Below the pieces are notes generated by a model. It had not been told where the DNA came from and did not search any database. It saw only the letters and a program-made list of their open reading frames with translations. Made by a program: the position numbers and the translations under genes. A stretch of DNA of 64,000 nt, from NCBI RefSeq assembly GCF_964204645.1, contig NC_134025.1, positions 24,582,001-24,646,000 on the forward strand, in the 5' to 3' direction. Source of the stretch: Tubulanus polymorphus. Lineage: Eukaryota; Nemertea; Palaeonemertea; Tubulaniformes; Tubulanidae. Below are positions 7,941 through 60,009 of this stretch, in pieces. Within the stretch, counting starts at the first letter, position 1, and every line of letters begins with the position of its first letter.

Positions 7941-10900
7941 ATGGGAGCCAATGTATCATACCCCGACAAACAGGGCTCGTCTGGTTCGAGAGGGTCCGGC
8001 TATTACGGATTTAACGTCCACGCGAAGGACGGCGCCGAAAACGTCGTCGCCCGAGAAAAGAAAAAGAAAACGTCGAAGTTCGCGACGTTGCGCAAAAAAC
8101 TGAACCGAGTGAGACGTCACAGTCGATCGTACGACCACGCCAAGGCTATCCGCGAATTCACGTCGAATTGGAGCATTCGCGAACTGCACGCGTTAGTCGA
8201 AGAGTACGAGGCGAGTATCGCGTTGAAAGAGTTGACGATTCTATCGAATCTAGCCCGTCCGTCTGCCAATTCGCTTAAACAGGACTTATCGAATTTATAC
8301 GACTACAAGTTTTGTACCGATCTCGATTTGATATATCGCGGCGCGTGTTTCCCGGTGCACCGGGCGATTTTATCGGCGCGTTGTCCGTATTTCCGACATT
8401 TGCTGCGGCGTTTTCCAACGTACGGCGCTCAAGTTCCCGTCGACATCAAGACGCATGGCGTCGACGTCAATCTGTTTTCGGCGTTGTTGCGTTATTTGTA
8501 CACAGGCGAATTCAACCAGGAAGAGTCGCACTACGAAAATCTCGACATACTCGTGCAAATCGGCGAGGAGTTCGGAACGCCGAATTTACTCGAACACGAC
8601 CTGCGACGATTGCTCGAAACCGGCGAATATTGTGATACCGTGTTGCTTTTCTCGTCCGACGGCGACCACCACCCGGACCCGGTCCTGTCGGACTGTACGG
8701 ACGCGTGCGGCGACGCGTGTAGCCCGCCGCACGTCGGGCGTTTAGAGCTACACTGTCATAAAGCGTTGTTAGCTGCGCGGTCGCCGTTTTTCCGAAGTCT
8801 TCTGATGCGTCGCGCTCGCGCCGGTGAACATATCGCCGAGCACATTCTACGGACGCCTACTCGTATTATCCTCGACGAGTCAGTCATTCCAAGGAAGTAC
8901 GCGAGGGTTTTGTTGAACGCCATTTATTTAGACACCGTGGATTTATCTTGTATCCTGAAAAGCAGCGTAAGCGCGTGTAGCCTGAGCGAGGTGCAAGCGA
9001 TGGTGTCCGGCAAGGGGAACATGACTCCGGCTGATGAAGCTATGGAAATCTTCCAAATCGGGCAATTTCTCGATTTCCCAGTATTATCACAAGGTGAGTT
9101 CTTCGATATTAAACGCTACTCGTTTAGAATACCAGATAGTGTCCAAAGGAACCACTTGCAGCGCCACTGGTTGTCATTACTTTATTGATAATGCAAGTAG
9201 ACAGGAATACCGGTAGATATGATATATTTTATTGTAGGCCTATACTGGGACCAGTTCTATGGTCATGAGTTCTTCAACCAAAGCTTGCTCAAATTGTCCA
9301 TTTCTGAAGTCTTTCTGAGTCCAGTTCCACAATTGCAATATAGAGTTATCTCCATAATTGAAATTAATTTCAAAAAGTCAAACTTTGGATCCTGTCTGCC
9401 GGTCCAATAATCGTTTATCGTGGATTTATCACTTATGGGATCTTTTCCATTTCCCATTAGTGAGGGCCACAGACATTTACCAGCCATGTACCACTTCATT
9501 CCTCTAGTAAGAAAGTCATTTTAGAAATCTAGGTTGTCAACTATAATATAATATTTATTGAAACATTGATAACATGTATGTAAGAACTGTACAGATTTTT
9601 TCGTTGTAAGCATTATTTTGCCTTGCAAGCAGCATGTCACAGGAGGTTATTTACAATGGCTCGAATTTAATTGATTAATAAAATATTACATAAAAATTGT
9701 ATAATAATCATATTTCTATGTACAGTTTATAGCAAGATATGATAAAACAGTAATATTTGGCACAGTACAGAAACTATCGGTATATTTTTTGGCACATATG
9801 ATATGAGACAGACATTTTTGAGCATATTGTTTAGATGAAATTTTCTCATTATTTTCTTTAAAATGGTTGTTGACAAAAGTTGTCAGTAGCATCTAGTTCA
9901 AAGTTTCTTTCACAATCAAGTGAAGCGATTTTGGAAAATTTTCATCTATCCGATTCAAATGCTGAAAATGATGAGTAATTTTTAGAATCAAAAGAATGAA
10001 TCGTAATTGCGTCAAGAAGTTATTATTTACGATTCGGTTTTAGTGATTTGGCACCGCGGAATGACCTCAGGCAAAGTTTGACAAGCGCGTAAAAACCTAG
10101 AAATAACACGACTATACTCGCCAATATAACGGTGAAAACATCGAGTAAAAGAATTTGATACCAGGACAAGTTTGAAGCGGGCATACTTAAATGATCGGAA
10201 CCGTGTTTCATGACATGTTCGACCCAATAGGCCGCCTCTTCCCTCGGACTGACGCGGCGGTCTTTGAAGATGGCCGAAGCTCGTCGGATGGCTTGTCGAT
10301 TAACGTCGCCATAAACAACCGTTTCAATGTTGCTGTAAAGTTCGTACGAGCTGAATCTTTGTATGTCCATCTTGACGCCGAATTTCTTATGCTCCATTCG
10401 TTCGGCGTTGAACGGCTGTTCAGCTGTCATCGGGAAACCGATCATAGGTACTCCGTGATAGAGGGCTTCGTACTGTCCATTATTACCGCAATGAGTGATG
10501 AACAGTTTAGTGTTTGGATGTCCGAGTAGATCGTTCTGCGGGATCCACGCTCTAACGAATACGTTATCGGGTAGGGTGACGTTTTCCATGCTGCCGAGAT
10601 GTTTCCAGATAACGCGCTGCCGTAGGTTTTTGAAAGCGTCCGCGATCTTCTGAAGCACGTCGACCGGCATGTGAGAAATGGTCGTACCGAAAGATACGAT
10701 GATGAGTCCGTCGGTGGCGCCATCTGCGAATTCGGCGAGATCATTCGGTAATTTGCGCGCGGGATGCGTAAGTAGGCCACCGACGTAGAACACGTTCGGC
10801 ATTTTGATCTTAGGGTAGTCGAGAATGTTATCGAGATCGATGAGCCACATTTTCGACTTGCTCGCCAAATCTTCCAGCGACTCGTACGGTCGTTCAGGCG

Positions 10901-13900
10901 TGTACTTCAAATAGCGTTTGTCGTCGGTGAAGAAGTTGAATATCGTCAGCCCGGTCGCCGTCATCAGCGTGTTTTTGACGCGTTGCAGCAGGTTCATATC
11001 GTCGTGTAGTTGAGAGTGTCGAATCGGCGCGATCGACGGCAACAGCATGATGTTCGACACGTAGGGCATCGGCACGGCCGTGATACCGCTGTACGGTATA
11101 CGCAACCGATGCGGTATCACGAACAGGCAATTCGTGACCACGGACGCGCCGACGATCGCAAAGTCCACGCGACGATTCGCGATCTCCGCGTACAGGCTCT
11201 GCTTGCTGAGAATGTCGTCGCATTGTCGCTCGGAGAACTGTGTGATGAATTTGATCTTGGCGATCAGCGACGACGTCATGTACGCGTCGGTCGAACGTTT
11301 CCGGAACATCGTATCGTGAAACGGATCGACGGCGTTCGACGATTCGTAGTAGATGAAGCTGATTCCCGATGTCGTGACTATCAGCGGTGGTTTCGTGACG
11401 GATTTCAGCACCATGTAGACGGTATGACCGTTCTTCACGAGCTGCTCGCCTACGGTCGCCAACTCTAAAATATGACTTGGCACGTTCGGCGGTAGGAGTA
11501 AAATTTTCTTGGCGTCGATGACCGCGTTGATCAACGTCGCCAACAGCGCTAACGAAACAATCAACATGGTACGTCTCGGAGATCTGAAAAAATACGAATC
11601 GAGAAATTCTCGTTGAATTGATGATGTCAAAGGATGACGGGCAGTTCACGAATTGTGAAGCTTTTCTTCAATTGTCTTTTGTGGAAAAACTGTTTTAATC
11701 GTTTCACTCTTAAGCGGAAAGGTTGTTTAAAGTTTACTATGATGATGGTAGTTCATTAATCGGTTGATACTCCGCGTGTTCGAGTTCATATTTCGGTGAT
11801 TTTCATATTTCGATGTTATAAATGTGAGCGAGTTAATTATGTATCGTCGAGTCGAGGTTACCGGTAGGTCAGGTAGATGTGAAATTCATTTTTAAACCAG
11901 CGCCGAAATTCGAAATATCCAAGTATATACGCTAAATCAAAACATAGATAGCGGTTTTTTAAACGCGCAGGTGACACAGAGTTCAGGTTTATAGGTGTAA
12001 AGTTGACAGAGGCATGTCCGGTTGGTGTTTTTAATTCAGATATCAGTTATTTTGTCCATATTTCCCATGCAACAATGCATGGATATAATAAGTAACAAAA
12101 TAAGCTTTATATTCGGCAGTCGCTTTTAAAGTGAAATTTACGTCATTCGTGCGGGAGCTGTTTTTCAATTAGGCCTATAGTTACTTTTGAAAAGTTATTT
12201 TTGCACCCCAATTTACTTCTATTCACTCGGCAATCATTTCTATTCTTCTGAATTTGATTGAAGAGCTCATCAGAATGAAGTAATTTCTAAACCGCTTTTC
12301 GAAGCCTTCGTCAATCATAAGTTTGAAGAAAAAATGTCCGTCTGTGTTCGATTTACGTTTAAGAAAAAATCACGGAGAAAAAGTTACGGTAAACTTATAA
12401 TGAATATCTTTAGAAGTCGCGTCTACAACGTAGCTCATAGTTGTTGGCGCTGGTGTAATTTGTGAAAAATATTGATTAGTGATGTTGATTTAATTCAATT
12501 AGTAAATGTATTGTAGCTGTTCAGCAATTCGTGAATTTATAAATTGCTGGTGGAAAATTTCTAATTAAAAAAAACCTTTTCGAGAAAAAGATTTTTGAAC
12601 CTCGACACTATATTTCGTTCTTCGGAAGAAAACATTGAAAAGAAAAGACTTTTAGAAGAAGTTATCTTAGAATTAATCGTATGGATTTGAAAATAATAGA
12701 TTTGATTAATTAAATACATGATGAAATTGTTGATTGATAAAATTCTTTGCGCTCACCTTTAGTCTAGTTAATCACAGTGTTGTATCAAGTAAAAAAGTTC
12801 CCGACGTGTGACATGGAATTAGTTCATTCGATCAATGGTTTCCCGGGTGCAGTTGGAGTCGTTTTATGAAAGGTCTGCGCATGGGGGCGGCCGCGTCGAG
12901 ATAGATTCTTGTTTCGTCGTTAAGTTACATTTTTGATCGGGTTCTTGAAAAAGGGAGAAAAAAATTCGCGCTAAATGTGAAAGTTCGCGTTCGTATTCGG
13001 CGAGGTCGGCGGTCGAGAGCTGATTGGGTTAGATTATTTTGCCTTCCATTTTCGTGTCACGCCAAATTAAAAATAGACATTTTCGAGTTGATCGCGTTCT
13101 AGAAATTTTTTTTCAAATCGAACCGCGTTCAAAGATCACGCCCAGGCCTCGCCGTATTGTTTTTATGCGCGCTTAATTTACGGCTTAATTTAATAAATCG
13201 GACGTACTCGAGTAGAAACAATCACGGAAATTTTCCCGTTCGGGTTCAAATTAATGTTATTAAAAAGAAATCACTTCAGACATTGTGTTAAATGACGTAC
13301 GACCAGTCGTAAAGGTTTTTAAAACGACGAGAACATGCGCCGAGTTCACGCAAGGTTCACTTACATAATTATAGTCTCGGTCGTTGAATAGGACATGTAA
13401 TACTTTCATACAATCTAGTTGTTAACGTACAGAAAATATCGGTGTCATAGCGGCCTAATTTCGGCGAAGGAATTCCGCGTATTCACATTTTACTGAGGGT
13501 TTTGTGCAGTTCTCAGGGTTACCGAACCACGCCTGTCGTGCATTAAGGTGACCTCTCTTAAAAAAAAAAACGGCGTTAAAAAGAATCAGCCAGGGTAGTC
13601 GATGTGCTGTAAGCTTTTTAGCTAATTGAAGAGACCGGGATAATGATATCGGATTTTTAATGGTCGTTCATTTGATCGCTGAAGTTCTATAGCCCTAGAG
13701 CCCTAGTTGGCAGTGTTCCAGGGATTAGATGGCCTAATTTTTGTAAAAGAGTGGGCGTACCCTAATATTGATGAAATAATATTATTGAATGATTGTGGAA
13801 TGATTTTAAATAAATGTTGTTGGAGATCTTCTTGTGTTATTGCAAATATTAACCCTTTCCAGGTCTGAGCACCATTTGTGAAGTAATGAAGAGCCTCAAT

Positions 13901-16900
13901 ACCACCTACATTACAAGTCATCAGAGTTCCTAAATAATTTTATAGCTATTTCACATGTTTTGCCTTTTCTTTCAGGATGTGAAGACATCATTGTCGACAA
14001 TTTGTGCGTTGAAAATCTTCCATCGACCTTAGCTTGGAGCCAGGAACCGCACGGTTCCGACTGGGTGCACAGGCAAACTTTTCATTATTTACGCGAAGAA
14101 TTCACGCAGGTAGCTCATTCCCAGATGCTCCAAGAGCTTAGTAAAGAATATCTGATCGCAGCCATCCAGTCGGACTATCTACAAGTAAGTAGTTGGTCGT
14201 ATGCAAAGACATTGAACCTCTTCATTGTTCCATAAGGACTCAAATTTGGGGCAACAGCCCATGTGTTAAGTATCTTGAGAATCCGAACAATATCTAAACA
14301 TCTTCTGAAAGCATTCTGTGTCTCTAGTGATGTCACTGATAACTGTTTGACAATAGCTGCTGTAAAGGTCATAAGAGAGTCATCGTGAAAACAGACATTA
14401 TAAGTGTCACAATTCTCAGTACTGTGTCAAGTATATACACCAGGGCGTTTATAGATACCGGTATAAATTCGCATTCCATTAAAAGTCTTTATCTTCAACG
14501 CGCGCGATATAGCTTCCCAAAAATAGCACGTTCGAGTTAAGGTTCAAATTTTATGAAATTTACATGGAAGTAAATAAAGCTGAAATCGGAGTCGGTTCTT
14601 TTAATGATATCCATGTACTTTCGGTGAATGGGGTTGAAATGGAATTCACGTGTAATTTTTCATAAATTCTAAAGCAACCCAGTTATTTATAATTGAAGAA
14701 CGTTTAAAAATAGCTGGCGGTCATATAGGGGATGTTTGTATAGCTATAGATAGTTCTAAGTTGAATTGAGACAACCTCTTGGTCCCATTTTTAGATGAAT
14801 TGGAAAGGTTTTGAACACTTATTTCCCATATCTATTGAATTATATAGAAAACAGTCGAACAAATGGCAGATTAGAAAATTTAACCTTTAATGATTTCCTG
14901 GAATTGAAATCGAAAGTTAATCTTTTAACGTGACTGACTGACTCAAAAGATAAGTCTTGAAATCGACTGCAGTGTGTACACAATTTGATACTCTACTTAT
15001 CAAGATTATTCTAAACTGTTGAATTCATTGGATAACAACTTTACTCAGCTGCAGCCCCTCACAAGAACATTTTATTTGTAGATCAGAAACCTGGTGTTTG
15101 AAAAAAAACAGTAGGTTGAGTCGAGTGTGTTGAACATTCAAATGTTTTTCCTTCAAGTACAGGTGTACGTCTGCTATGTGCAGAGCAGGTTGATGATAGA
15201 ACATTAGAGTAATTTGAATGCATAAGAAGTAGACATTTTTGTGTAGTTGTTGAATTGGTTAATCTATGAAATACTAGTTTCTTAGCTCAGGGTATTGAAA
15301 CTTAAAATCTAGGTTACAGAGCTCTCAAACTTTTCTTCGCAAGCGAGTTATGGTTTTGAATCTGTCCATTAATTTGGCAACACTCACGGACAAATTCATA
15401 TGATCTTTGATCTTGAGGAATAGGTGTACGGATGAAAGATGATGGTGACTCTCGGTGATAGTTGTTGTAAACTATGAAATACTAGTTTCTTAGCTTAGGG
15501 TATTAAAACTTAAAGCCTAGCGCACATCGGCACTGCGATTGGAGACAACTAGTTGCAAGGCAGTTTTCGGCGCATGAGAGGAACTGGCTGGATACTATCA
15601 GTTGCTTGAATGTGTCGATGTGAGCGAGCTTACGATTGGTAAGCGTCGATCTATCTCCAGTTCCAGCCAGTTGCCCATGTTCTACTTTTGAGCAACTGGT
15701 TGTACTCAGTCGCAGTCATATCCGTCGATGTGCGCGCTCTGGATCTCGACGATCGACACACGCCATGCACTTGCTGCAACTGACCGGTTGTAACTAGATT
15801 CCGATGTGCGCGGGGTAATCGTTCGGTAGCAACTAGTTGTCTCCAATCGCAGTGTCGATGTGCGCTAGGCTTAAGATTTAGGATACAAAGCGCAAACTTT
15901 TCTTCGAAGCGATTTATGGTTTTGAATCTGTCCATTAATTTTGGCAAAACTCACCAATTCATATGATATAAGATATGATCTTTGATCCTGAAGAATAGGT
16001 GTGCGGATGAAAGATGATGGTGACTCTTGGTGATGAGTCATATCTTTCATATTTGCTACCACTTCAACCACTCATTCATTACCACTTACAAAGCACTTTC
16101 GATAAATCATGGCTTTTTCGCGTACATGTATCAATAATGATCTTCTGACGCGAATGTAGTAGAGATCTTTTTCTTTAGCTACTACGAGTACTTTCCGTTA
16201 TGTTTGTTGTTGTGGTTTATCGGATGATATGATGAGCAGTTATCCAGTTTACAGTTCAAACCACTCTATTATCTCTTTCCTCTCATGATCTGACTGTGAG
16301 CGAGCGCTGATGAACGAGCTTTCGGCTCCATGCAGTCTGCGAAGGCAGATTAAGCGCGACAGTAATTTAAAAGCTGCTTAACGTCATGGGGACTGTATAC
16401 AGGGTCTCTCAGCTCACGTTAACCTTGAATTTCGTATGAATGCGAGCAGATCTGATTCTCATTAGAAGTCATCAAGAGACAATTTCATTTGAATAACTCC
16501 TGATTATTTGAATTTGAAGGTCTGTAGTACTCTACAGCGTGATCAAATAGTGAATTACCGGATAGACTTGCTATCTTCTTAAATAAGATGAATATAACCA
16601 GAAGTTCAAGTTCATTTATTTCATAGAAAAGAACATACAACATAATAATATTTACAATTACAGAATTTAAAAAAGTGTGATTTTTTAATAAAATTGATTG
16701 TTCTTCATTCGTATTTTTTAACTGAGTTTATATTTTCTGTTCTGTCATTACAGGCGTCTGAAGCAGAAGTTTTGTGTGCTGTGATAAAATGGGGTGAACA
16801 CCAGCTGATGAAGAGAATGGAGGAGAGAGGTATGTATTTTGACTGTCCCCCATTTAGCGGTTCATTTGTAAATAAGTTCAAATGACACTGTTTACATATT

Positions 16901-19975: not shown

Positions 19976-21547
19976 ATGAACAACCGTCTGCCATGCCGTA
20001 TCAGGCATATGTAAACTGTATAGAAAAAATGTTATTGTGGGCCAAATTATATATGATGATATCGTGCTTTATTTGTTATATGTATGTTTTTACACCAGCT
20101 TACGCTTATTGAATTATATTGAGAGAAACTGACCCGTAGTTGTAATAGAATGAAGGGATTATTGAAGTTTAAAACAGGTAGAATATTCTGTAGAATTTTA
20201 ATGTAATACCTATGTTGTATATAATACTGACTATTGCTACACTATAAGGGAGATTGTCTGTCTACTACCTCCTTAAAACAGGCTCATGGTTAACTGGAAA
20301 AATACCTCACGCTTTAGTATTTTAGGATCTTTCCAACTACACGCCTTACAACTTATGTTCCGATAGTTTTTGCTAATACATGTACCCGGTATCTGGTATA
20401 TGTTTTTGGAGAAATAATCATGATTGTAATTCCAGCCACATTGACTGTGCATTGGTAGTACAGAATTTTAGAAAGAAAGTTCGAGATATTTGATATAAAT
20501 GCAGTTCAATATTGTCCATATATTGATGATTTTTTCTGTTTTAGTTGTTTATGACCTTAATTGATGCTTTCAAATTTTCTTGTGAAGTCTAACAATTTGG
20601 CTCATTCTGTTTGAACTTATGACCCATTATTTTGCTTTGCTTTTCGTATTGCGCTGGCCATGCAATGCTGATTGTCTAAGAAAATCTGGTAGAGCTTTAA
20701 TTTTACAAGAAGGAATTGAATTGTAAGCAAATAGGTCCTACAGACCAAAATATCTGGATTAGATACTTGACTTATTACATAATTTTGTGGATTTGTAGCA
20801 AGAAAATACAGATTTTCTTATGTAGGAAAAATTAAATTAGTAGATTTAGATAAAATAATGTGACCAGGGTCTGGTTTCATGGTAAAGTACAGGCTTAATG
20901 ACAGTTAAGTTTTAATTGTTATCCTCATCGAAAACATGAAGAAACCATCAGCAATTAAACTAAAAATTTGAGTTTAACTTTTTTGTGAAACTGGGCCTTA
21001 GGGATAATATACGATGAATTTACATAAAATTATCATAAGATTTATTATATCAGATTTATGTATATCAGGATTAAGTTAATTTCATATTCCACGAATTGAT
21101 ATCTATTGAAATATTAAGATAAATGCTTCATTTTTAGAATCCATAAAAAATGAGTATATGTAAAATGTGTTATTTTTGTATATCAAATGCTTATTTCCGT
21201 GTTTTTTACGTTCAAATTGTTTCCTTTTGTGGAATTAAAAAGTCTATCACACTAAAAATGAACATGTTTGTCGTTAATTCTTTTGATTGATGTACATGAA
21301 CTGAAGTTCTGTGGCTACAAAAAGGTTTCAGTCCAAGGAGGATACACGCTGGCTTAACTTGCATTACTGCTCTTAGATGGCAGTACTGAATCTAGAACTA
21401 ATCTGTCATTATATCAACGAGCAACTTGATCAGTTGGCAGTTGATAACGAGTGTAAATGGATCTACCATAGGCAGGTTGAACATAGAATGACAGGTCTCG
21501 CTAAAGGATACTGGACTATTACAGAGACTTTCACATGGCCAAAAATA

Positions 21548-24500
21548 ATGAAATTTGTAAGTTTGATAAGAATATGATTGGCTTACTAAGAGATGGAAAT
21601 CTTCAAATCATTGGCGTATGGCCAGGCACTGCTTGCTGTGGCATACTTGATAGTATCCTAGAAATGTTTATTGCCATCCTGGGGTTTATTTGTTAATACC
21701 TAAGTTATAGTGTTGAAAAAATGGGTTGCTGGAGAAAAAGGAAGCCATTCTGATTGTTATAATCATTGATTGGGGTTGCTAAGTACAGTTAAATATTGGA
21801 CTTTTAGCTTATATTATTAAATCTTGTCCCTTGCCGTTTAAACTAAATAAGATCAGATCTTTTTTATATTGTTCAACTAAATCTTATAGATGAATGTTAT
21901 GTCCTCATTACATTATCATCATGATTTCTTGTATTTTGACTTTCTTATTTCACAGGTGACTGTATTGCTTACTGCAGCATTTGTTGTGGACTCCACAAAT
22001 GGCATACAGTCTCAAGATTACCAAAATATGCTCAACTACATGAAAGCAAATGAAGAGCTTTTCAGGCAGTTTTTATCCTTGGACGAGCCTTGTGGCCCAA
22101 ATAAGGAATATGTAAAATTGATACCACCTCCTAATATGGAATGTCTGAAACCACCTGAGCCTCCAATGGAATGGTTGGGTATGTCTTGCTAATATCATCA
22201 TTGTCAAAAATTATTGTATATATTTCAGTTACTGTAATGAGGATAATCACGTTCAAAGTTGCCGAGAGTTTAAGTAAACGAAATCATTCATCATTTTAAG
22301 ATGTAAAAACACTATCAAAATAATGATCCCTAGGACTATGGTTTGACGTGGAGTTTTTGGTTTTTTCTAAAGACTATTTTTATCACAGAAACGTATCAAG
22401 TATTTTCACAAGGCACCAATTCTCATTTCCTAAATTCATAGATTTCATAACAAAACAAAAATCCACCGATCAGAACTTTGAAGTATCGCATGAGTATGAA
22501 ATACTTGATCTTAGTATTCAGGGATAAGAGAGCAAAGTGCTGTGCACAGATTCATACATAGATAGATATAAGTAAAAAACTAGACAAAGACAACAAAATG
22601 CATATATCATAGACATTGGTACATATCCAACCTAAGCTCTCTGATATGCCAACTTTTCAGTATATTTATGTATTCATATATACCGTAAGGATACAAATAG
22701 TCGTAATTATCAAAATTGCGGGTAATAAGAGGCCATTTTTCTTCCTGTTTGCTGACATAATTGGGTAGTTGGAAATTATGATGTTAGGGTACATGTATGC
22801 ATTGTGTGTTGTACCCGATCAACTGTGTGTGCAATAAAAAATATGTTGTATATATTTTTTCGTGACCAAGTTAGAAATTACCAAGAGCAGCCTAAAAACG
22901 TTTTAATGAAATCTTTGAATCGACGGCTATTACTGGTTTTGATTTGGTCCTATTAAGTATTTGCGTTGTTCGTTGATACCCCAACATTTTATTACCTCTC
23001 CAAACAAAATTATAAGAGTTTCTTGTTATTACTTCCATCACACGGGCTTACAGTAGCACGTACGTTGAATTTTTAAACCTTTATTTCAAAGTTAGATTGT
23101 TGATAGAATGCATAAGGTAAGCTTCGGCCATCATGAATGTATCATTCTGAATTGAAAATGAATTGCATTTAAAAAGGTTCTGTATAGTATTTCTAGAGTC
23201 TGTGCATTTCCCTTCCTCGAAACAACTTGTAGAGGCAGACCTTGTCTTTACTCCAATGTCAAAAGAAATTACATATATATAGGCCTAACAATCTTTAAAG
23301 ATCACAACATGCCTTGGCATTTATATCTTATCCTATTAGTTACTTATAGGCGGGATATACTTCAACCCGATAACAAAAACTCGGTAAATGATAACAGTAT
23401 TTGACATAAATTTGTAATATTATATTGGATATTACAGTGTGGTCGGGTGTGTACAGATCTAATGCACGATAAGTTGTGGTTTATGTGTTATTTGCACAGT
23501 CACTTGATTATGCTTTAGGAAGTAATTCATGACTAACTCCATTTTTAGTAGGAGTAGAATTCCCAATATATTTTTTAGAGAAATGTATTCCCAATGCAAA
23601 AAGAAACTTTCTAAACAATTTTGCCTACTTGTTAATACAATGTAGGTCACTTTTCGTCCGTCGTCCGTCTATTAAAACGTTTTTTGTTGCAAAGGTTAGT
23701 TTGTGTACTTAGAATTATTGCACATGCACATTCAAAATCAATTTCTGTTCGCTTTTTCACAAAGTCCAGGAAAATTACAAACATCACTGGCTTCATTGTT
23801 GTCTTTGAGTGCGTATGGCTCGTATCCTGCCTTACAACTCGTACGCGCGAGTAAAATTCCGTTAAAAATCTCATGAAAAGCATGTGTTTACAAGAACGTT
23901 GAGCAAAGAGGTTTTTTTTACAAAATTACATCTGTCTCGATTGAGCAATGATGTGCGTGGATTAAAGTGAGATTCCTTACGTACTATAAAGCTAATATGT
24001 ATTTCGTAATAAATTCACAGCGGCTCCAAAAACTCATCTGCGGTTAGGCACTCGGCAAGCAGCCACCTCCATAGTATCTCATAAAAGAGGCCAGTAAGTC
24101 TTGTGGTGATCAAACGAAATTTTAGAGTCCATGCACAGTACACACCGAAATTACAGATGCTTCAATAATATGGGGATAATTGTGAAATCAGAATACTTAA
24201 TACTTCGGTTCATCGGTCTTACTTTTGCATTAAAGTTTTCCCTAAAAAGCAAAGATATGATTTTTCAGTTGTTATATTCTTATTCGAATATCAAAAGCCA
24301 TAGAGAAGCTAATTGAATAATGATGTATAGTGGAAGGCTGTGTTTTGTGAAACCAGTCATATACAGTGGTTACTCATGTGTGAAAGATGAGCGGGAAAAG
24401 ATTGAGATAGTGTTAAAAAAGCACTTGATAGTGGCTCAGGGGCTGATCTGGTACATCTATAACTTCAGTATTTGACTCATATGATGATTATCTGTTGGTA

Positions 24501-27500
24501 CTTGGAGTAGGAATTTACTACTGAAATAAATCCCCGGGCAAATGAATGTGAGCGAATTGATATCAAAATATTCTTGTCCCATTACTACAATTTTTGAAAT
24601 TTAATTTTCATTGAAGAATAAGTTAAAATAGTTTCTTTTCTATTTAACTCATTTCATCGAAATACCGGTGATTTATAGAATTAACTCACTTATTGGGGAA
24701 AAAACTAGCTGATTTCATGGTTAAACCCATGAATGATTAATGTTTTGCTGATAGAAATACTGGTACCGAATTCCCATAAATTTCCAGGAAATTCCATGAC
24801 GAATTGTCGTTAACAAAAAAGCCAAACCTTTGGGTAGATATTTCGATCGTCTGCATTTTAGTGTACGCCTAGAAACAATAACAACATGTACTGATGATAT
24901 TCTCTAGTTGAAGAGAATACCTCCGGGGGAACAATATTACTCATCAATTATTAAAGCCCGGTTTGAAAAGAGACTCCTTTATTTTCATTGATTTTGCAGG
25001 ACTGAGTACATCCACGATCGCGGTAACAGGTAAAAAGAATGAATCATTTTAGTAATAACGTTCGTTTGAAATTCTTGCATGAACTTGTCACATATGTATT
25101 GCTCATGATACACAAAGATATGCACAAAGTTTGCTTGGTATGCTCTCGTTTTCAGTTAATGCGACAAACAGTAGCATGGCAACTTCTAGTCCAATATCAC
25201 ACATCACAACTACCCCTAGCATGTCAACAAATGCAAATACTACCACTGAAAGTAAGAATATTTATGGGCTTATTTTCAATATAACCATAAATTCTTTCAC
25301 TACGAGGAATTAGTACTGATTTTGTGTGGAGATGTACTTATAACAATATCAACTGTAAAAAAATACATTTTTTTACGTCTAATCTTCCTATTTTTGAACA
25401 GAACTATCACCGAAATTCTGATCTAGTTAATTATTTGGACGTCTGTATGTGCTACCATTGAATATTGAATGAAAGGGTATATTGCGTGTTGTTCTTTAAA
25501 TGATCTCCCTATTTCAGTTACGAAAACTTCAACAACTGATATTACAGTTACTGAAGCAGCATCAACTATTTTCACGACCAATACTACTGCGAATGTTACT
25601 ACTAAAGATTTTGCATCTAGTGCCAATACACGTATGATACTACCTAACATGTCCAAGACCAACAATTTCATTAATCATCTACCGCATATATATATCTATC
25701 TTCATATCAAAGACCTTGCTTGTCCAGTCACTCGTTTCGTGAATGAGCTAAATCAACTTGCTGTTTTGAGTCCCATTCACATTTTGAACTGGTCATGAAA
25801 ACCTAATTCATAATGGGCAATTCTTGCTGAAAATAGTGTTTATTAATTCATTTTGACATGATAAAAAAACCAAAGGTTCCGATCACAACTGGTATGTTGA
25901 TCGATTCATGTGGAAGCTTTCATTGGTATTAATAGATTCCGCAATGCGTCATATTTACCTATAAATGATATGAAATGTTCGACGTTAACATCTTTAATAC
26001 GCTAATTAATTTGCTTAACAACATGATCGTGCATTCTCCCCCATTTATTACGGGCATATTTCCGAGATATTTATACACTTGAAAATCCATGATTAATCAT
26101 CATTCTATCGTACCTGCCTGCGTCATATTTCTGTTGCAGATGATGATAATCTTATCCCTCATATGAATCCTATAGTATTGAATGATCGTTTATTGTATGA
26201 TTACTTAAAGTTGCGAGATAGGAACGTTTTTTCGCGATGGAGGAATATTTTCTTTTCATGAGAGATCAGAGGAGCCAATTGGGTAAAGAAAAGAAATAAT
26301 TCTTCTTTAAACCCCTCAAGGATAATCTCATCATCGGTTACGCAGCTGGCCTAGAATTTCTAAATCTAAAAGTCGATGGTCATTATTTCACCATGCGTTG
26401 CACATCTGGGCCAGATTATATCGTAGACTTGATAAAATCCTGTTATGGAGTCCATTTATATCAACAGTAATCATGTGAAGACTAGCTTTTCCACCTATGG
26501 TTTTCCACCTCAACGAATGACAAGTATTTGTTGATGAATATTGTCATTATTACCACAAACGTTCAACAGCACGCGTTTGATAAAAATATTTCCCGCCACA
26601 CTAATGTACACATCTGTCAAAAACATCCAACGTATTGCGTTGTGTGGCTGTTGCTTCTTAGCTAAAAAGATCCTGCGTAGAAGAAAAGGTTTTCTTTCGA
26701 TAAAAGGAAAATAATAGCTAAGCGTTGCTTGCAGTCGTGTTATATACAATTGAAACAAACAGTTTTTACATTTATGATAAATGCTGTGGTCTTTAAATGT
26801 ACATTTTCCATCATATTGCTTTCACATACTCCATTAGTTAAAATCCGTTACTCTAGATGTTACAATAAAATATATTTCAAACTATATACCCAATGTGATT
26901 TCATAGTGCATATTTTTTTTAAATGGGTGCTTGGGAAACCTAATCATATTGCTTTTGGTTGGAGCCTAAATGTACAAGGTAGCATGATATAAATGCATAT
27001 CCTTTTTCCTTTAATTTCAGCGGAAAACCAAAAACAAGCTGGACTTACAATTGGTTTAATCATCGGTGTTAGTGTCATTGCTGTATGCATTATATTATTG
27101 ATAGTTGGATACAAGAAACATTATCAAAAGTAAGTTTTCGGTATAAAACACGTATTTCTGGAATTTCTACTATCACCACCGGGCCTGCACCCGGTCGCAT
27201 GTTTAAATCACTTATTTTCAACCCTTAAAGGCCGCGGGAGCTCGTGTACTGCTTCCAGAAAATCCCCAGAATACGATTTAGCAACTCGTCAATTTACTTC
27301 ACCTTAAAAATTCGGTGTAGAAATTCTATTATATTCGGCTTAGAAAAACGTATTTCGTCAATTCGTCAATTGTCAATTGAACTTCTATAACCTCTTTAAT
27401 CGGCACGCGATGAATGCTGCTTCTGTGCATTGTTCCTGTATGAAACCCATTGATTTAAAAAGAATTTTCGATGCACAAAATTAATTAAGCTTACGAGCTG

Positions 27501-28997
27501 ATACATAATGAAACTCCAAGAGAAACTCAACTAGGTTTGAGTGATTTGATAAGTTTGAGGAATGGTGAGCTATTCATATTATACATGTACTTGGATTTTA
27601 AGAAGGCTGTTGATTACTTCCGAAATAGAAACAATCGTAATAATAATTGGTTCTTTTTGCACTCATTTATTCATGCTTCATCTGATATTAAAAAACATAT
27701 ACAGCTCTTTAAATTGTTTCGCACTGCAATTTAAGGTGTTACCCGGAGATTCCTTATGAACGGTTTTCTATGGTTTATAAAAGGTAGTCGTCAGTCGTAA
27801 GTTTATCCGATCAGAAAATGCACCAGTAAACGTTATTCGCACCTCCGATCCTCCAAAATTGCAGTAGTAATAAAATCAGATTAATAAGAAAATTGAAATC
27901 AATTCAGTACTAAAAAACTTGATCAATTATTGTTTTGATTGAGATTGCATCATGATTATGAAAAATGGGAATCAATTTTAGTTAAAATAACTTGATCACT
28001 TAACAAGGGTTCTGTTTGTAATAACGTTTATATTATGTGATATTCGGAAAAATCACTTATCACCCTCAATCATTATCAATCATGGTCATTGATTTCCGTG
28101 TTCCATCAAACGTACATGGTGCATGTTTGTTCAAAACTTCTTATGAAATTGATTTTGGCACCAGAATTGGATTCACGTCATTACAATAATCACCATCATC
28201 ATTTCAACCGTTCTCACCAAGCACCTGATCTATTTCAATCTGGGAAATAGACGAGAAGACTATAACTACCTTACATTTGGAATAATGATTTCAAAACCAA
28301 TTCACACAAGGCAGTGTACATAAGGCTATAAACAATTTAAGGAAATTCAAAATCTATTTACAGAAAAAAAGTTGGCCAAGGACCCAAAACGGATGCTGAA
28401 AATAATCCGCCAAAAATAGGTAACGTCGGTAATTTCTGCACAACCCCGGTGAATCGTACATCTTCAATGGAACAACCTCTGTCACCTGGAGATGAGCCTG
28501 CGACCCCATCCCCGAAGGCAAACGGGTCAGCATTTGGCAGTAATTTTGACTGGATACCTCCCGCAGAAGTCGATACTACTGTTGGATACATCAACGAGGG
28601 CTTGGAAACCTCTCCACCAGTTTCGCCACTACATGGACCAAGCACATTTTCAGCATTCCAAGAAAATCAAGCGCCTGACAAAGACAGCCGCGTGGACCCA
28701 GAAAATGGTGAGGTTCGCCAGGATACAAATGCTCAACATTCCAAAAATCTTTCTGGCGAAACAGAATGCCCAGTTCTAACTAAAAATAATCCAGATACAC
28801 TGGGCGATCATCCGAAAAAGCGGAAGAAAATAAAGAAAAAGAAACTTAAGAAACTGAAAAAAGTATTCAAATCGCTTAATAATAATAGTCATGGTGATGA
28901 ATCTTCGCCTGCTCCGAGTGATCTTGTGAAACAGCTTCCTAATCCGTTGCCTCCTATTTACTCTTCTATCCCGCACAATCGGGATTCAATAGCGTAG
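21548..28997 (+). CDS. single-pass membrane protein with mucin-like ectodomain, unrecognised family
   Basis: I do not recognise this family. Exons: 21548-21556, 21956-22178, 25000-25029, 25156-25251, 25518-25631, 27021-27129, 28364-28997 (1215 nt, 404 aa). Exon 1 codes only for MKF; joined to exon 2 it makes a clear signal peptide (MKFVTVLLTAAFVVDSTNG). The ectodomain of about 140 residues has two cysteines, a proline-rich patch (KPPEPPMEW), and then a Thr/Ser-rich stretch with several N-glycosylation sequons (NAT, NTT, NVT). A transmembrane helix follows (GLTIGLIIGVSVIAVCIILL) and then a tail of about 210 residues, acidic to neutral and Ser/Pro-rich, with a dense lysine block (coded near 28815-28870) and a proline-rich end. 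The introns on both sides of exons 3, 4 and 5 are phase 1. It could be a mucin-type adhesion molecule or receptor; this is inference from architecture. Confidence 0.72.
22179..24999. other. large intron 2 of the mucin-like gene
   Basis: AT-rich DNA of 2.8 kb. No exon in frame, no clear transposon ends and no RNA gene recognised. Further introns of this gene (25632-27020, 27130-28363) are equally featureless. Confidence 0.5.
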
Positions 28998-29548
28998 GAT
29001 GATAGAGCAACAGAATTTAGAGTAAATGACTCTGTGTTTGAATTTGCAATTAAATCCAAGAAGCCCGTGAACAGATTCGAATAGAATGGTGGCATTTCGT
29101 GTGAACAGTCCCAGGTCTGTGATTTGTAATTACGCACAAAAGCAATTTTAAGAAAAAATTTGTATGTACATATTTGATAATGATTGGCTGTTGTATTCCA
29201 TTCAAAGGTATGCATTATGAACATTTTTTTACCTATAACTGTGATGACGATAATGATATGATGATCCACTTATGAGACTATTATCGGAGCACGTGTCTCA
29301 TTACTGATACTGATTTCTTTTATCAGCTTTTCAAGGGAAATTAATGAAAATTGTGCCCGAAAAAAATAACACTCTTTGTATCTCGTTTATTGCAAAATTG
29401 GGGCCCGAGAACTTACATCGAAAATGGTTTTAAACTGTGTTTAAATAGTACATGTTAAAATCTAAACGGTTGCGGGTTTTTTAACGGTTTAGAACCGATC
29501 TTTAAAAAGGAAAGCAATTTTCAAAACCCTGGGAGTATTGCCTCATTG

Positions 29549-29716
29549 TACCATAAGGTGCTGCCGCTATGCTAGTCGTTAGTGGATTTTTCAAACACTA
29601 ACATGAACCAGCTCTGGCATCTGATTATTACCATTACCCATTGATTGCCAGAGTCGGTTTCTGTTAGTGTCTGGAAATTCCGCTATCCATGACAACAGCG
29701 GCAGCACCTAATGGTA
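29549..29716. mobile_element. foldback MITE (164 bp) with TA flanks
   Basis: The element spans 29551-29714. The two arms of about 70 nt start CCATAAGGTGCTGCCGCT and CCATTAGGTGCTGCCGCT, both read inward to CTCTGGCA, and surround a loop of about 25 nt. TA lies directly outside each end, as in Tc1/mariner-type MITEs. A degraded extra arm follows at about 29755-29821. Confidence 0.7.
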
Positions 29717-29728
29717 TAGTGAATGTAA

Positions 29729-29734
29729 AATAAA
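29729..29734 (+). terminator. candidate poly(A) signal of the mucin-like gene
   Basis: AATAAA, overlapping a second copy 4 nt further on, 732 nt after the stop codon. If it is used, the foldback MITE is part of the 3' UTR. Confidence 0.35.
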
Positions 29735-30745
29735 TAAAAAATTAGATAACCGTGATTGCCAGAGTAGTGTACAAAAGATCCGCTAATGATGAGCTAGCAG
29801 CAGCAGCAGCACCTTATTGCATAAATCAGTCGGCTCGAAACCCGCCTTTTAATTCTTGGAGCATTTAATATTTTTTTCTACTCGTTATTTATGATTAAAA
29901 AATGCTTTGTATGATAAGACTATAATAAATTCCTTTCTATAGTCTATGGTATTGAATAAGATGTATGCACCTTGTCTTTCTTAATAAATTGTTATACGTG
30001 TATTTCCTCGCGTGTAATTCATTTTGAAAACAGGGCCTTCATTGCTGATCATAATGAAAAGGGAAATTTTTATAATGAGAAGGGAAAGATTTTGATGCTG
30101 CTGTTCTCATAAATTCATGCCGCGAGTCTCCTTGGTGGAACCTAATTGTTCCTGGTTTCACTGAAAATACCACTCAAAAATGCACTGGAAAAATTGTTTT
30201 CTTGAGAAAAAATATCTTTATTCCTTCCTTCGATGATGGAAAACATTTAATACATATCCAATAAATCACAGATACGTCGTAAACTTAAAACAAATTTACT
30301 CTGAATTAAATAGGTAAACCAATAGTCACTTCATCAATATTCATTAATTTACATTGCCAATCCTGTTTGAATTACTGGCAGTTATTAAATACATTTTTTA
30401 GTAACTTCTGTTTATTAACTAAATATCATCACCCACCTCTTGAATGTCTATAGTGAAATGAAAACTGAGAAAATTCATCGTGCAAAATTTGCACAAAAAA
30501 TTTGACCGAATAATGTACATCATTATTACCGACTTGGAAAAACTACACAAGCATTTCTAGACATTGTAACATAACAATACTTGTATTGAGTTTAATTTCG
30601 TCTAATAAACTAAAATGTGTATTAGATTACAAACTACATGAAGTTCCTAACAACATAACTTACAGTACATAGATAATACAGGTACCAAACAAACAAAATG
30701 CAATAGCTCTTGATGATACGATAAACTGTGCGTACATATCAATAG

Positions 30746-58068: not shown

Positions 58069-59070
58069 TCATCTCCAGCCGTTGGTTCCATCCCATCCAC
58101 CACTTCCGGAGCCACTTCCAGAGCCAGTTCCAGAGCCACTACCAGATCCTTCAGAGTGTTCGCAAAATTGCCCATAAAATGACAACTGGCAGAAGCAAGT
58201 TACATCATCTGCTGGCATTCCACCATTTTGACAAACTATGAGTTGGCAATGAGATCCAGTCCAATCTGGTGTGCAGTCACATCCAGAGCCATTTGAAACC
58301 AGCTTTCCTCCATTCAAACATTTGCGAATTGTGCAATGCTGGCCAGTCCACGTATGTGTGCAAAAGCAGGTACTATCAGATAAGTGGACCCCGCCATTCA
58401 TGCAATCAGCTTCATCACATTTAATTCCCTTTCGCCCTGTTGGGCATTTACACAATCCATCATCCATCTTAACTTTGCCTTCATCACACCCCTGTGAATG
58501 TGAATTGAAGAGTAAACATATTTCTGCCAGATAAGCTTACAAAATTATTGCCTTGGTCAACAAGAGGGTAATCGGAGAAAAATAAGAAATTCATTTGAGA
58601 TCTTGAACTTTTATAATATCCAATCAAAAAATAAATTACTATTTGGACCATAATTATTAGTTCTAGGTCATACCCATAGAGCTAGAGTGGGAACTTCTTA
58701 AATGGCGTTTCCTCGATCCTTCAAGAAATCCTTTGAAATTGTAGAAAGGTATTTAGAGAATACCAATGTGTACTGTAACACATTGACTTACCCTCGAATA
58801 ATAATTCCAGCCTATAGTGTCATTTAGGTCTGCACAATTCATCATATCCCTATCTAAGAGCCGACAGTTGTAGTTATTAGTTATCAGAGGATTGTAATTA
58901 AATGATTTACACTTATCGATGCATTCCATCATACATTCCAGTACACTTTCAACACGAGTTTCATAATAGAAAACTGTCATTGCCTTGTTTGGGCAAACAC
59001 TAAACCATAAAGCACGCGCAAGTCCAAAAGTGCAACACAGAAGCAGAATAGTTCCCATACGGTTTAACAT
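58069..59070 (-). CDS. secreted PAN/apple-like plus EGF-like repeat protein
   Basis: Exons 58792-59070 and 58069-58491 (702 nt, 233 aa). A signal peptide (MLNRMGTILLLCCTFGLARA) is followed by an N-terminal module with CMMECIDKC and NYNCRLLD, the spacing of a PAN/apple domain (about residues 25-93), encoded by exon 1. Exon 2 codes for EGF-like units: a partial one, then three of the form C-x-NGG-x(7-9)-C-x-C-x(3)-W/Y-x-G-x(2)-C with only four cysteines each (CMNGG, CLNGG, CQNGG). The C-terminus is a Gly-Ser dipeptide run ending GGWDGTNGWR. There is no transmembrane helix, so it is probably secreted or part of extracellular matrix or mucus. PAN and EGF modules often bind carbohydrate or protein, but the partner is unknown. 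The split between domains coincides with a phase-0 intron. Confidence 0.8.
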
Positions 59071-60009
59071 ATTTTCTAATAATTCGGCTCCTCGGGCTCC
59101 TGAGCTGAGAGCTTTTTAGGCTCAGATGAAATATATTATTCCAAACTGAGTTCCAACTATCTTTGCCAGGGATTTACGGACCAGATAATGAGTTCACGAT
59201 TAATGGACTGTTCTAGCTAATGACATTGCTAATATCATAAACTATCAATTTGATTGCATCGTTACAGATCAGCCATTCAGGTGAGACTCCTATCGCATTC
59301 ACACTCAGCTTAATGAGTATCCATAATGCATGTTGACACCAAACGCAATTGTCATCCACAATCGTCTGCACAACGGCCTAATGTAGCAATCCGAATCATA
59401 TTAGAGCCATCAACGTCCAACTTTTAAATGACCCTCAGATATAAACTGAAATTGAAAACTCGCTTTTGGAAAAATAGATTTATTTACGATTCAATTAAAA
59501 ACCAACTCCATGAATATAACAATTTGACATATATTGTATAATACATAGCTAATGAGCACCAGATGCTGCTGGCACTGCAATCTTGATACAAAGATTTTTC
59601 AGTTTAAATCATTGAAAATACTATTACAGCGAAGAATTAAAACGCATTATTCTTTAATTAATTAAAGTAACTACCAAAGGTTCTAAGATTATAGTCAAAT
59701 AATGAAATTATATTATATGAGTGTCTGAGTAAGAAAATAGAACTTCTGTACTAATGGCAGTAAGAGACCTCTAGTTTTAATAGTTGAAACTTAAAAAACT
59801 AGTTTTTATAAGTACATTCATCAAATGGGATTTTCACTTTATCGAAACGTAATCAATTGAACAACATAATGACATTTTTCCTAAGAATGGCAGTCATCAG
59901 AACTTGCATACCGGGTCATTTTCATACCGTAATCAATTATCTACAATGTTTTAGCACATTAATTAATCAAGAGCTAAATACATATTTTTGTAATAGAAAA
60001 CATGTATGC
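59071..60009. other. intergenic, IBTK 3' flank to PAN/EGF gene
   Basis: AT-rich, no gene seen. A minus-strand AATAAA near 59479-59484 could end IBTK. The promoter of the PAN/EGF gene must lie at the left end. Confidence 0.45.

Follow-up and report, generated by a model that had tools for sequence, protein, structure and literature searches.

Previously, the Ser/Thr-rich, O-glycosylated stretch of CD45 (PTPRC), a type I protein, has been shown to lie on separate exons (RA, RB, and RC), and splicing makes this mucin-like stretch as short as 41 or as long as 202 residues (PMC6170634). In CD43 (leukosialin) and other small membrane sialomucins, the ectodomain is mostly mucin-like (PMC6170634) and is joined by one helix to a cytosolic tail. 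The schistosome micro-exon genes (MEGs) encode proteins with a signal peptide, some of them membrane-anchored and predicted to be heavily O-glycosylated, and about 80% of their coding region is made of symmetric exons of 6 to 36 bp (PMC5825161). Besides, ENaC carries a PPxYxxPhi motif that binds ligases of the Nedd4 family and shares residues with a YxxPhi endocytosis signal (PMC7463639). The present study concerns a locus in a window of 64,000 nucleotides (the whole stretch of DNA analyzed) from the nemertean Tubulanus polymorphus. Judged by its sequence, the locus fairly likely holds a gene, present in one copy, whose product is a mucin-like glycoprotein that spans the membrane once in type I orientation. 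It is probably an ordinary animal cell-surface glycoprotein gene in kind, like no catalogued family searched.

The probable gene comprises seven exons on the forward strand, and all seven exons given in an earlier note on this DNA could be rebuilt from the window as open, phase-matched blocks. Exon 1 as modelled (21548..21556, 9 bp) reads ATG AAA TTT and ends at a phase-0 donor, gtaagt. Exon 2 (21956..22178, 223 bp) carries the core of the signal peptide and a head with two cysteines (C49 and C66), and it ends in phase 1. Exon 3 (25000..25029) is a 30-bp microexon that adds GLSTSTIAVT. It is followed by two Ser/Thr-rich exons, exon 4 (25156..25251, 96 bp, 52% Ser/Thr) with three N-glycosylation sequons and exon 5 (25518..25631, 114 bp, 49% Ser/Thr) with two. 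Exon 6 (27021..27129, 109 bp, phase 1 to 2) encodes the transmembrane helix GLTIGLIIGVSVIAVCIILLIVGY and then the stop-transfer stretch KKHYQKK, while exon 7 (28364..28997, 634 bp) encodes the cytosolic tail, including a basic helix, a PPxYxxPhi motif, and SP/TP sites, up to a TAG stop. The six introns all have GT..AG borders; their phases are 0, 1, 1, 1, 1, and 2, and in silico splicing gives a joined coding sequence of 1215 bp that is open throughout and encodes 404 residues. We infer that these exons are joined into one transcript. Hexamers resembling poly(A) signals, A(A/T)TAAA, start at 29049, 29729, 29894, and 29924 on the same strand (span 29049..29929), 3′ of the stop. Upstream, on the same strand, lies a gene with a Pfam BTB domain, whose exons extend to about 19045 and which we take from its C-terminal sequence to be BTBD7; downstream and convergent, at about 30.8 to 34.6 kb, lies TMEM39 (Pfam Tmp39). 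Thus, these neighbors give the gene clear borders.

Splice sites were scored with a generic metazoan matrix and ranked among the 358 AGs and 407 GTs of the region. The acceptors of exons 2 to 6 ranked 1, 8, 7, 3, and 13 of 358, and the donors of exons 2, 3, 4, and 6 ranked 20, 14, 18, and 8 of 407. The donors of exons 1 and 5 were middling (47 and 48 of 407). The acceptor of exon 7 was weak (74 of 358), and several BTBD7 acceptors score similarly low. Furthermore, synonymous codon use in the chain is nearer to the local noncoding composition than to that of the window's GC-richer training genes (−58 bits). The weak acceptor and this codon use would fit a chain that is partly not a gene, in which the frame of exon 7 is real and some of the upstream exons are chance open blocks. 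However, the signal peptide, the Ser/Thr-rich exons, the helix, and the tail follow each other in the order of a membrane glycoprotein and in one continuous frame, and phase 1-1 blocks are more numerous than chance would give. Between exons 2 and 6, four open phase 1-1 candidates were observed, whereas Markov sequence of matched composition would yield 0.46 on average; three of the four are exons 3 to 5, all Ser/Thr-rich. A Ser/Thr-rich phase 1-1 block of at least 90 bp arose in none of 300 Markov simulations. Since the thresholds were set post hoc near the observed scores, these figures serve as a guide rather than as a strict test. We regard a partly spurious chain as improbable. The length of the open frame in exon 7 is beyond chance: from stop to stop, it spans 218 aa, whereas no run in 11 kb of noncoding DNA nearby exceeds 114 aa. 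The fourth phase 1-1 block (23552-23641), which has neither Ser nor Thr, was left out of the model, 0.46 such blocks being expected by chance.

The translation start calls for more caution. The earlier note had proposed a 9-bp first coding exon that splits the signal peptide; the exon sequence and its donor stood up, but the choice of start is not secured, because the frame is open upstream of it. From ATG 21548 back to ATG 21377, 57 codons are open, with a TAG directly before 21377, and such a run has a chance probability of about 0.013 to 0.018. Two further ATGs lie between, at 21488 in frame and at 21535 out of frame. The stretch 21377..21547 (+), which is 5′ UTR in the earlier model, could thus be an in-frame N-terminal extension, and its coding score is about that of exon 2, within the top 2 to 6.5% of random open stretches against the local background. 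On this account the coding sequence would begin at ATG 21377 or at ATG 21488, adding 57 or 20 residues, and the 9-bp coding exon, possibly along with the simple signal peptide, would be an artefact. Against a background of the stretch's own composition, however, the same score is unremarkable (31%), and the extension has neither a Pfam match nor a second copy in its own genome. The −3 position is T at ATG 21377 and A at ATG 21548. If translated, the extension would bury the signal peptide, and some 60 residues ahead of a hydrophobic core are unusual for a signal peptide. An upstream start is on balance doubtful, although it keeps an appreciable chance. Preference was given to ATG 21548 on account of its A at −3 and of the recognizable signal-peptide-like stretch that directly follows; the 9-bp first coding exon is accordingly one choice of start among several.

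Given a start at ATG 21548, the predicted protein begins with MKFVTVLLTAAFVVDSTNG, which fits the n, h, and c regions of a signal peptide, with a hydropathy of 2.67 over its 11-residue core, and which would direct the chain into the secretory pathway. The head that follows has 57 residues and its two cysteines at positions 49 and 66. AlphaFold2 run on exon 2 alone gave short helices only, at low confidence, and the mean pLDDT was 54 to 55 for exon 2 and exon 7 modelled separately. The head may be pictured as a small structure with one possible disulphide (C49-C66) atop the Ser/Thr-rich stalk. The stalk comprises 86 residues, 45% of them Ser or Thr, with N-glycosylation sequons at 89, 92, 115, 141, and 145, and its proline content is just 3.5%, unlike classical mucin repeats. 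The stalk would be densely O-glycosylated and, with these five sequons, would form a stiff, hydrated spacer. A single hydrophobic segment exceeds the threshold (Kyte-Doolittle peak 3.28), and the positive flank KKHYQKKK comes right after it. The helix contains a GxxxG spacing (GLIIG) and, with the stop-transfer stretch, would anchor the protein in the membrane in the predicted type I orientation. The sequence supports well the earlier description of a mucin-like, single-pass membrane protein. The largely mucin-like ectodomain, the single helix, and the predicted cytosolic tail recall CD43 and the other sialomucins, from which the protein differs in the two-cysteine head that precedes the stalk, in its low proline, and in matching no Pfam family above the cut-off. 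A role as a surface coat or as an adhesion modulator is what we infer from these features.

The designation "receptor", used in the earlier note, found no support: a ligand-binding domain was not detected, and the head has no confident fold. SEA, EGF, Ig, and lectin domains were not detected in Pfam, either in the full protein at E ≤ 1 or in the head and the tail at E ≤ 10. Profile searches of the head and of the tail alone, which had been suggested as a check, returned nothing real in Pfam at E ≤ 10. With the full protein, no Pfam model reached its cut-off; the weak matches all overlap the helix and score at most 57% of their cut-offs. Among them, TMEM154 (PF15102) covers the stalk, the helix, and the juxtamembrane region with 14.5 bits, far from its gathering cut-off of 30.3 bits. 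This is a composition match, because shuffled stalk and tail controls gave other membrane families (Adeno_E3_CR2, Psg1, Orf78, RIFIN, and Glycophorin_A) at similar scores. Adeno_E3_CR2, TMEM154, Psg1, TAS2R, and Orf78 were accordingly rejected as leads, being below the cut-off and overlapping the helix. PDB sequences and viral contigs gave no match to the protein, and an Rfam scan of the whole window gave none. When the 77 contigs (268 Mb) of the species' own genome were searched, the only matches to the protein were its own exons, as expected for a single copy, and no paralogues of the whole protein, the head, the tail, or the N-terminal extension were found there. Hence, the earlier statement that the protein belongs to no known family holds within Pfam, PDB sequences, and its own genome, and "orphan" is used here only in the sense of no match in these three.

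Exons 3, 4, and 5 are all of phase 1-1, as had been noted before, and in silico dropping any one of them preserves the frame, whereas skipping of exon 6 breaks it. The earlier note took this symmetry as a sign of alternative stalk lengths. That the frame permits skipping was borne out; phase symmetry alone is no evidence of it. In extracellular proteins of metazoans, nearly all shuffled modules are of class 1-1 (PMC8001218), and phase 1 introns are over-represented near signal-peptide cleavage sites (PMC1626468). A signal peptide followed by a run of phase 1-1 exons is thus the metazoan norm and proves neither skipping nor duplication; symmetry is the default in extracellular exons and is not to be read as evidence of alternative splicing. 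Duplication was considered and rejected, as exons 4 and 5 share no repeat and nothing marks exons 3 to 5 as copies.

A splice-tunable receptor, in which cassette exons 3, 4, and 5 would vary the length and the glycosylation of the stalk between tissues or states, much as CD45 does, draws on these three droppable exons, on the donor of exon 5, which is among the gene's weaker ones, and on the precedent of CD45 (PMC6170634). The idea of a variable stalk is in itself reasonable, since CD45 uses such exons to vary its mucin-like stretch. The two systems share a type I protein with its Ser/Thr-rich stretch on separate exons, O-glycosylation being predicted in the present case. However, the fibronectin type III repeats and the tyrosine phosphatase domains of CD45 found no counterpart here in Pfam at E ≤ 1, and exon skipping is proven for CD45, whereas here the frame would permit it. 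The general phase pattern of metazoan extracellular exons and the lack of any receptor domain in Pfam also weigh against such a receptor, and the strength of the splice sites around exons 3 and 4 favors constitutive use. We consider it unlikely. A fuller version would be a lineage-specific receptor that sets its spacer length by independent skipping of the three phase 1-1 exons and its surface lifetime by an ENaC-like PY/endocytosis motif, an invertebrate parallel to CD45 without shared ancestry; this we hold to be quite improbable. If exons 3 to 5 were skipped in a regulated way, the locus would show, independently, how an animal tunes a glycosylated spacer by splicing; otherwise, it adds to the mucin-like membrane protein genes that belong to no named family. 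The short symmetric exon, the putative signal peptide, the predicted membrane anchor, and the predicted heavy O-glycosylation also recall some of the schistosome MEGs (PMC5825161). In contrast to those genes, exons of such short length are here limited to the 9-bp and the 30-bp exon, 39 of 1215 bp or about 3% of the coding sequence.

A second product is conceivable through an alternative last exon at 26140..26259 (+), in phase with exon 5 and encoding HDDNLIPHMNPIVLNDRLLYDYLKLRDRNVFSRWRNIFFS* without helix and tail, which would give a soluble stalk protein. Its unmodelled acceptor is strong (8.3), and 40 codons are open to the stop. However, five other unmodelled intronic acceptors score 6.9 to 8.3, so that chance alone would supply one such site, and the closest poly(A)-like hexamer lies 0.7 kb further on (26864). 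The exon may well be a chance block, and we deem a soluble form very improbable.

In the membrane-anchored product that we favor, the tail has 216 residues, is largely disordered, and carries proline-directed Ser/Thr sites. The basic stretch KKRKKIKKKKLKKLKKVFKSL holds 14 K/R in 21 residues, a density not reached in 5000 shuffles, and is the only part of the tail that AlphaFold2, run on exon 7 alone, rendered confidently helical (block pLDDT 93 to 95). This helix could lie on an acidic membrane. Near the C terminus, LPPIYSSI (389-396; PPxYxxPhi at 390-396) has a shuffle P of 0.008; the P values of the motifs were computed after the motifs were picked. As in the C-terminal PY motif of ENaC, PPxY and YxxPhi overlap in LPPIYSSI (PMC7463639), and Nedd4 binding is predicted here; the short linear motif alone is held in common, with no channel homology. 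The features by which a PY motif would mark a Nedd4 substrate, namely PPxY, its extended form PPxYxxPhi, and a predicted cytosolic segment, are all present in the sequence. By recruiting AP-2 and/or a ubiquitin ligase of the Nedd4 type, the motif would set how much of the protein stays at the surface, and the turnover of the protein is perhaps governed by LPPIYSSI, a PPxYxxPhi motif as in ENaC. A C-terminal PDZ ligand (DSIA) was considered but is not claimed, and neither is a Grb2-type YxN (shuffle P 0.25).

Some further features of the window were observed. Inside the span of BTBD7 but on the opposite strand, 10023-11645 (−) is an uninterrupted frame of 540 aa for a UDP-glycosyltransferase (Pfam UDPGT, 2.3e-89); it coincides with a local GC peak (0.476) and is a nested, apparently intronless gene. 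In a BTBD7 intron, two similar stretches at 15380-16040, spotted by eye around aataggtgt(a/g)cggatgaaagatgatggtgactct, look like a local duplication. Just beyond the glycoprotein gene, 29543-29722 forms an inverted repeat with arms of 77 nt (77% complementary, 26 nt apart) and resembles a small palindromic mobile element. Further downstream, 58069-59115 (−) encodes PAN-like and EGF/teneurin-type repeats, and then a Gly/Ser-rich stretch that arises from a 12-bp tandem repeat (58100-58146).
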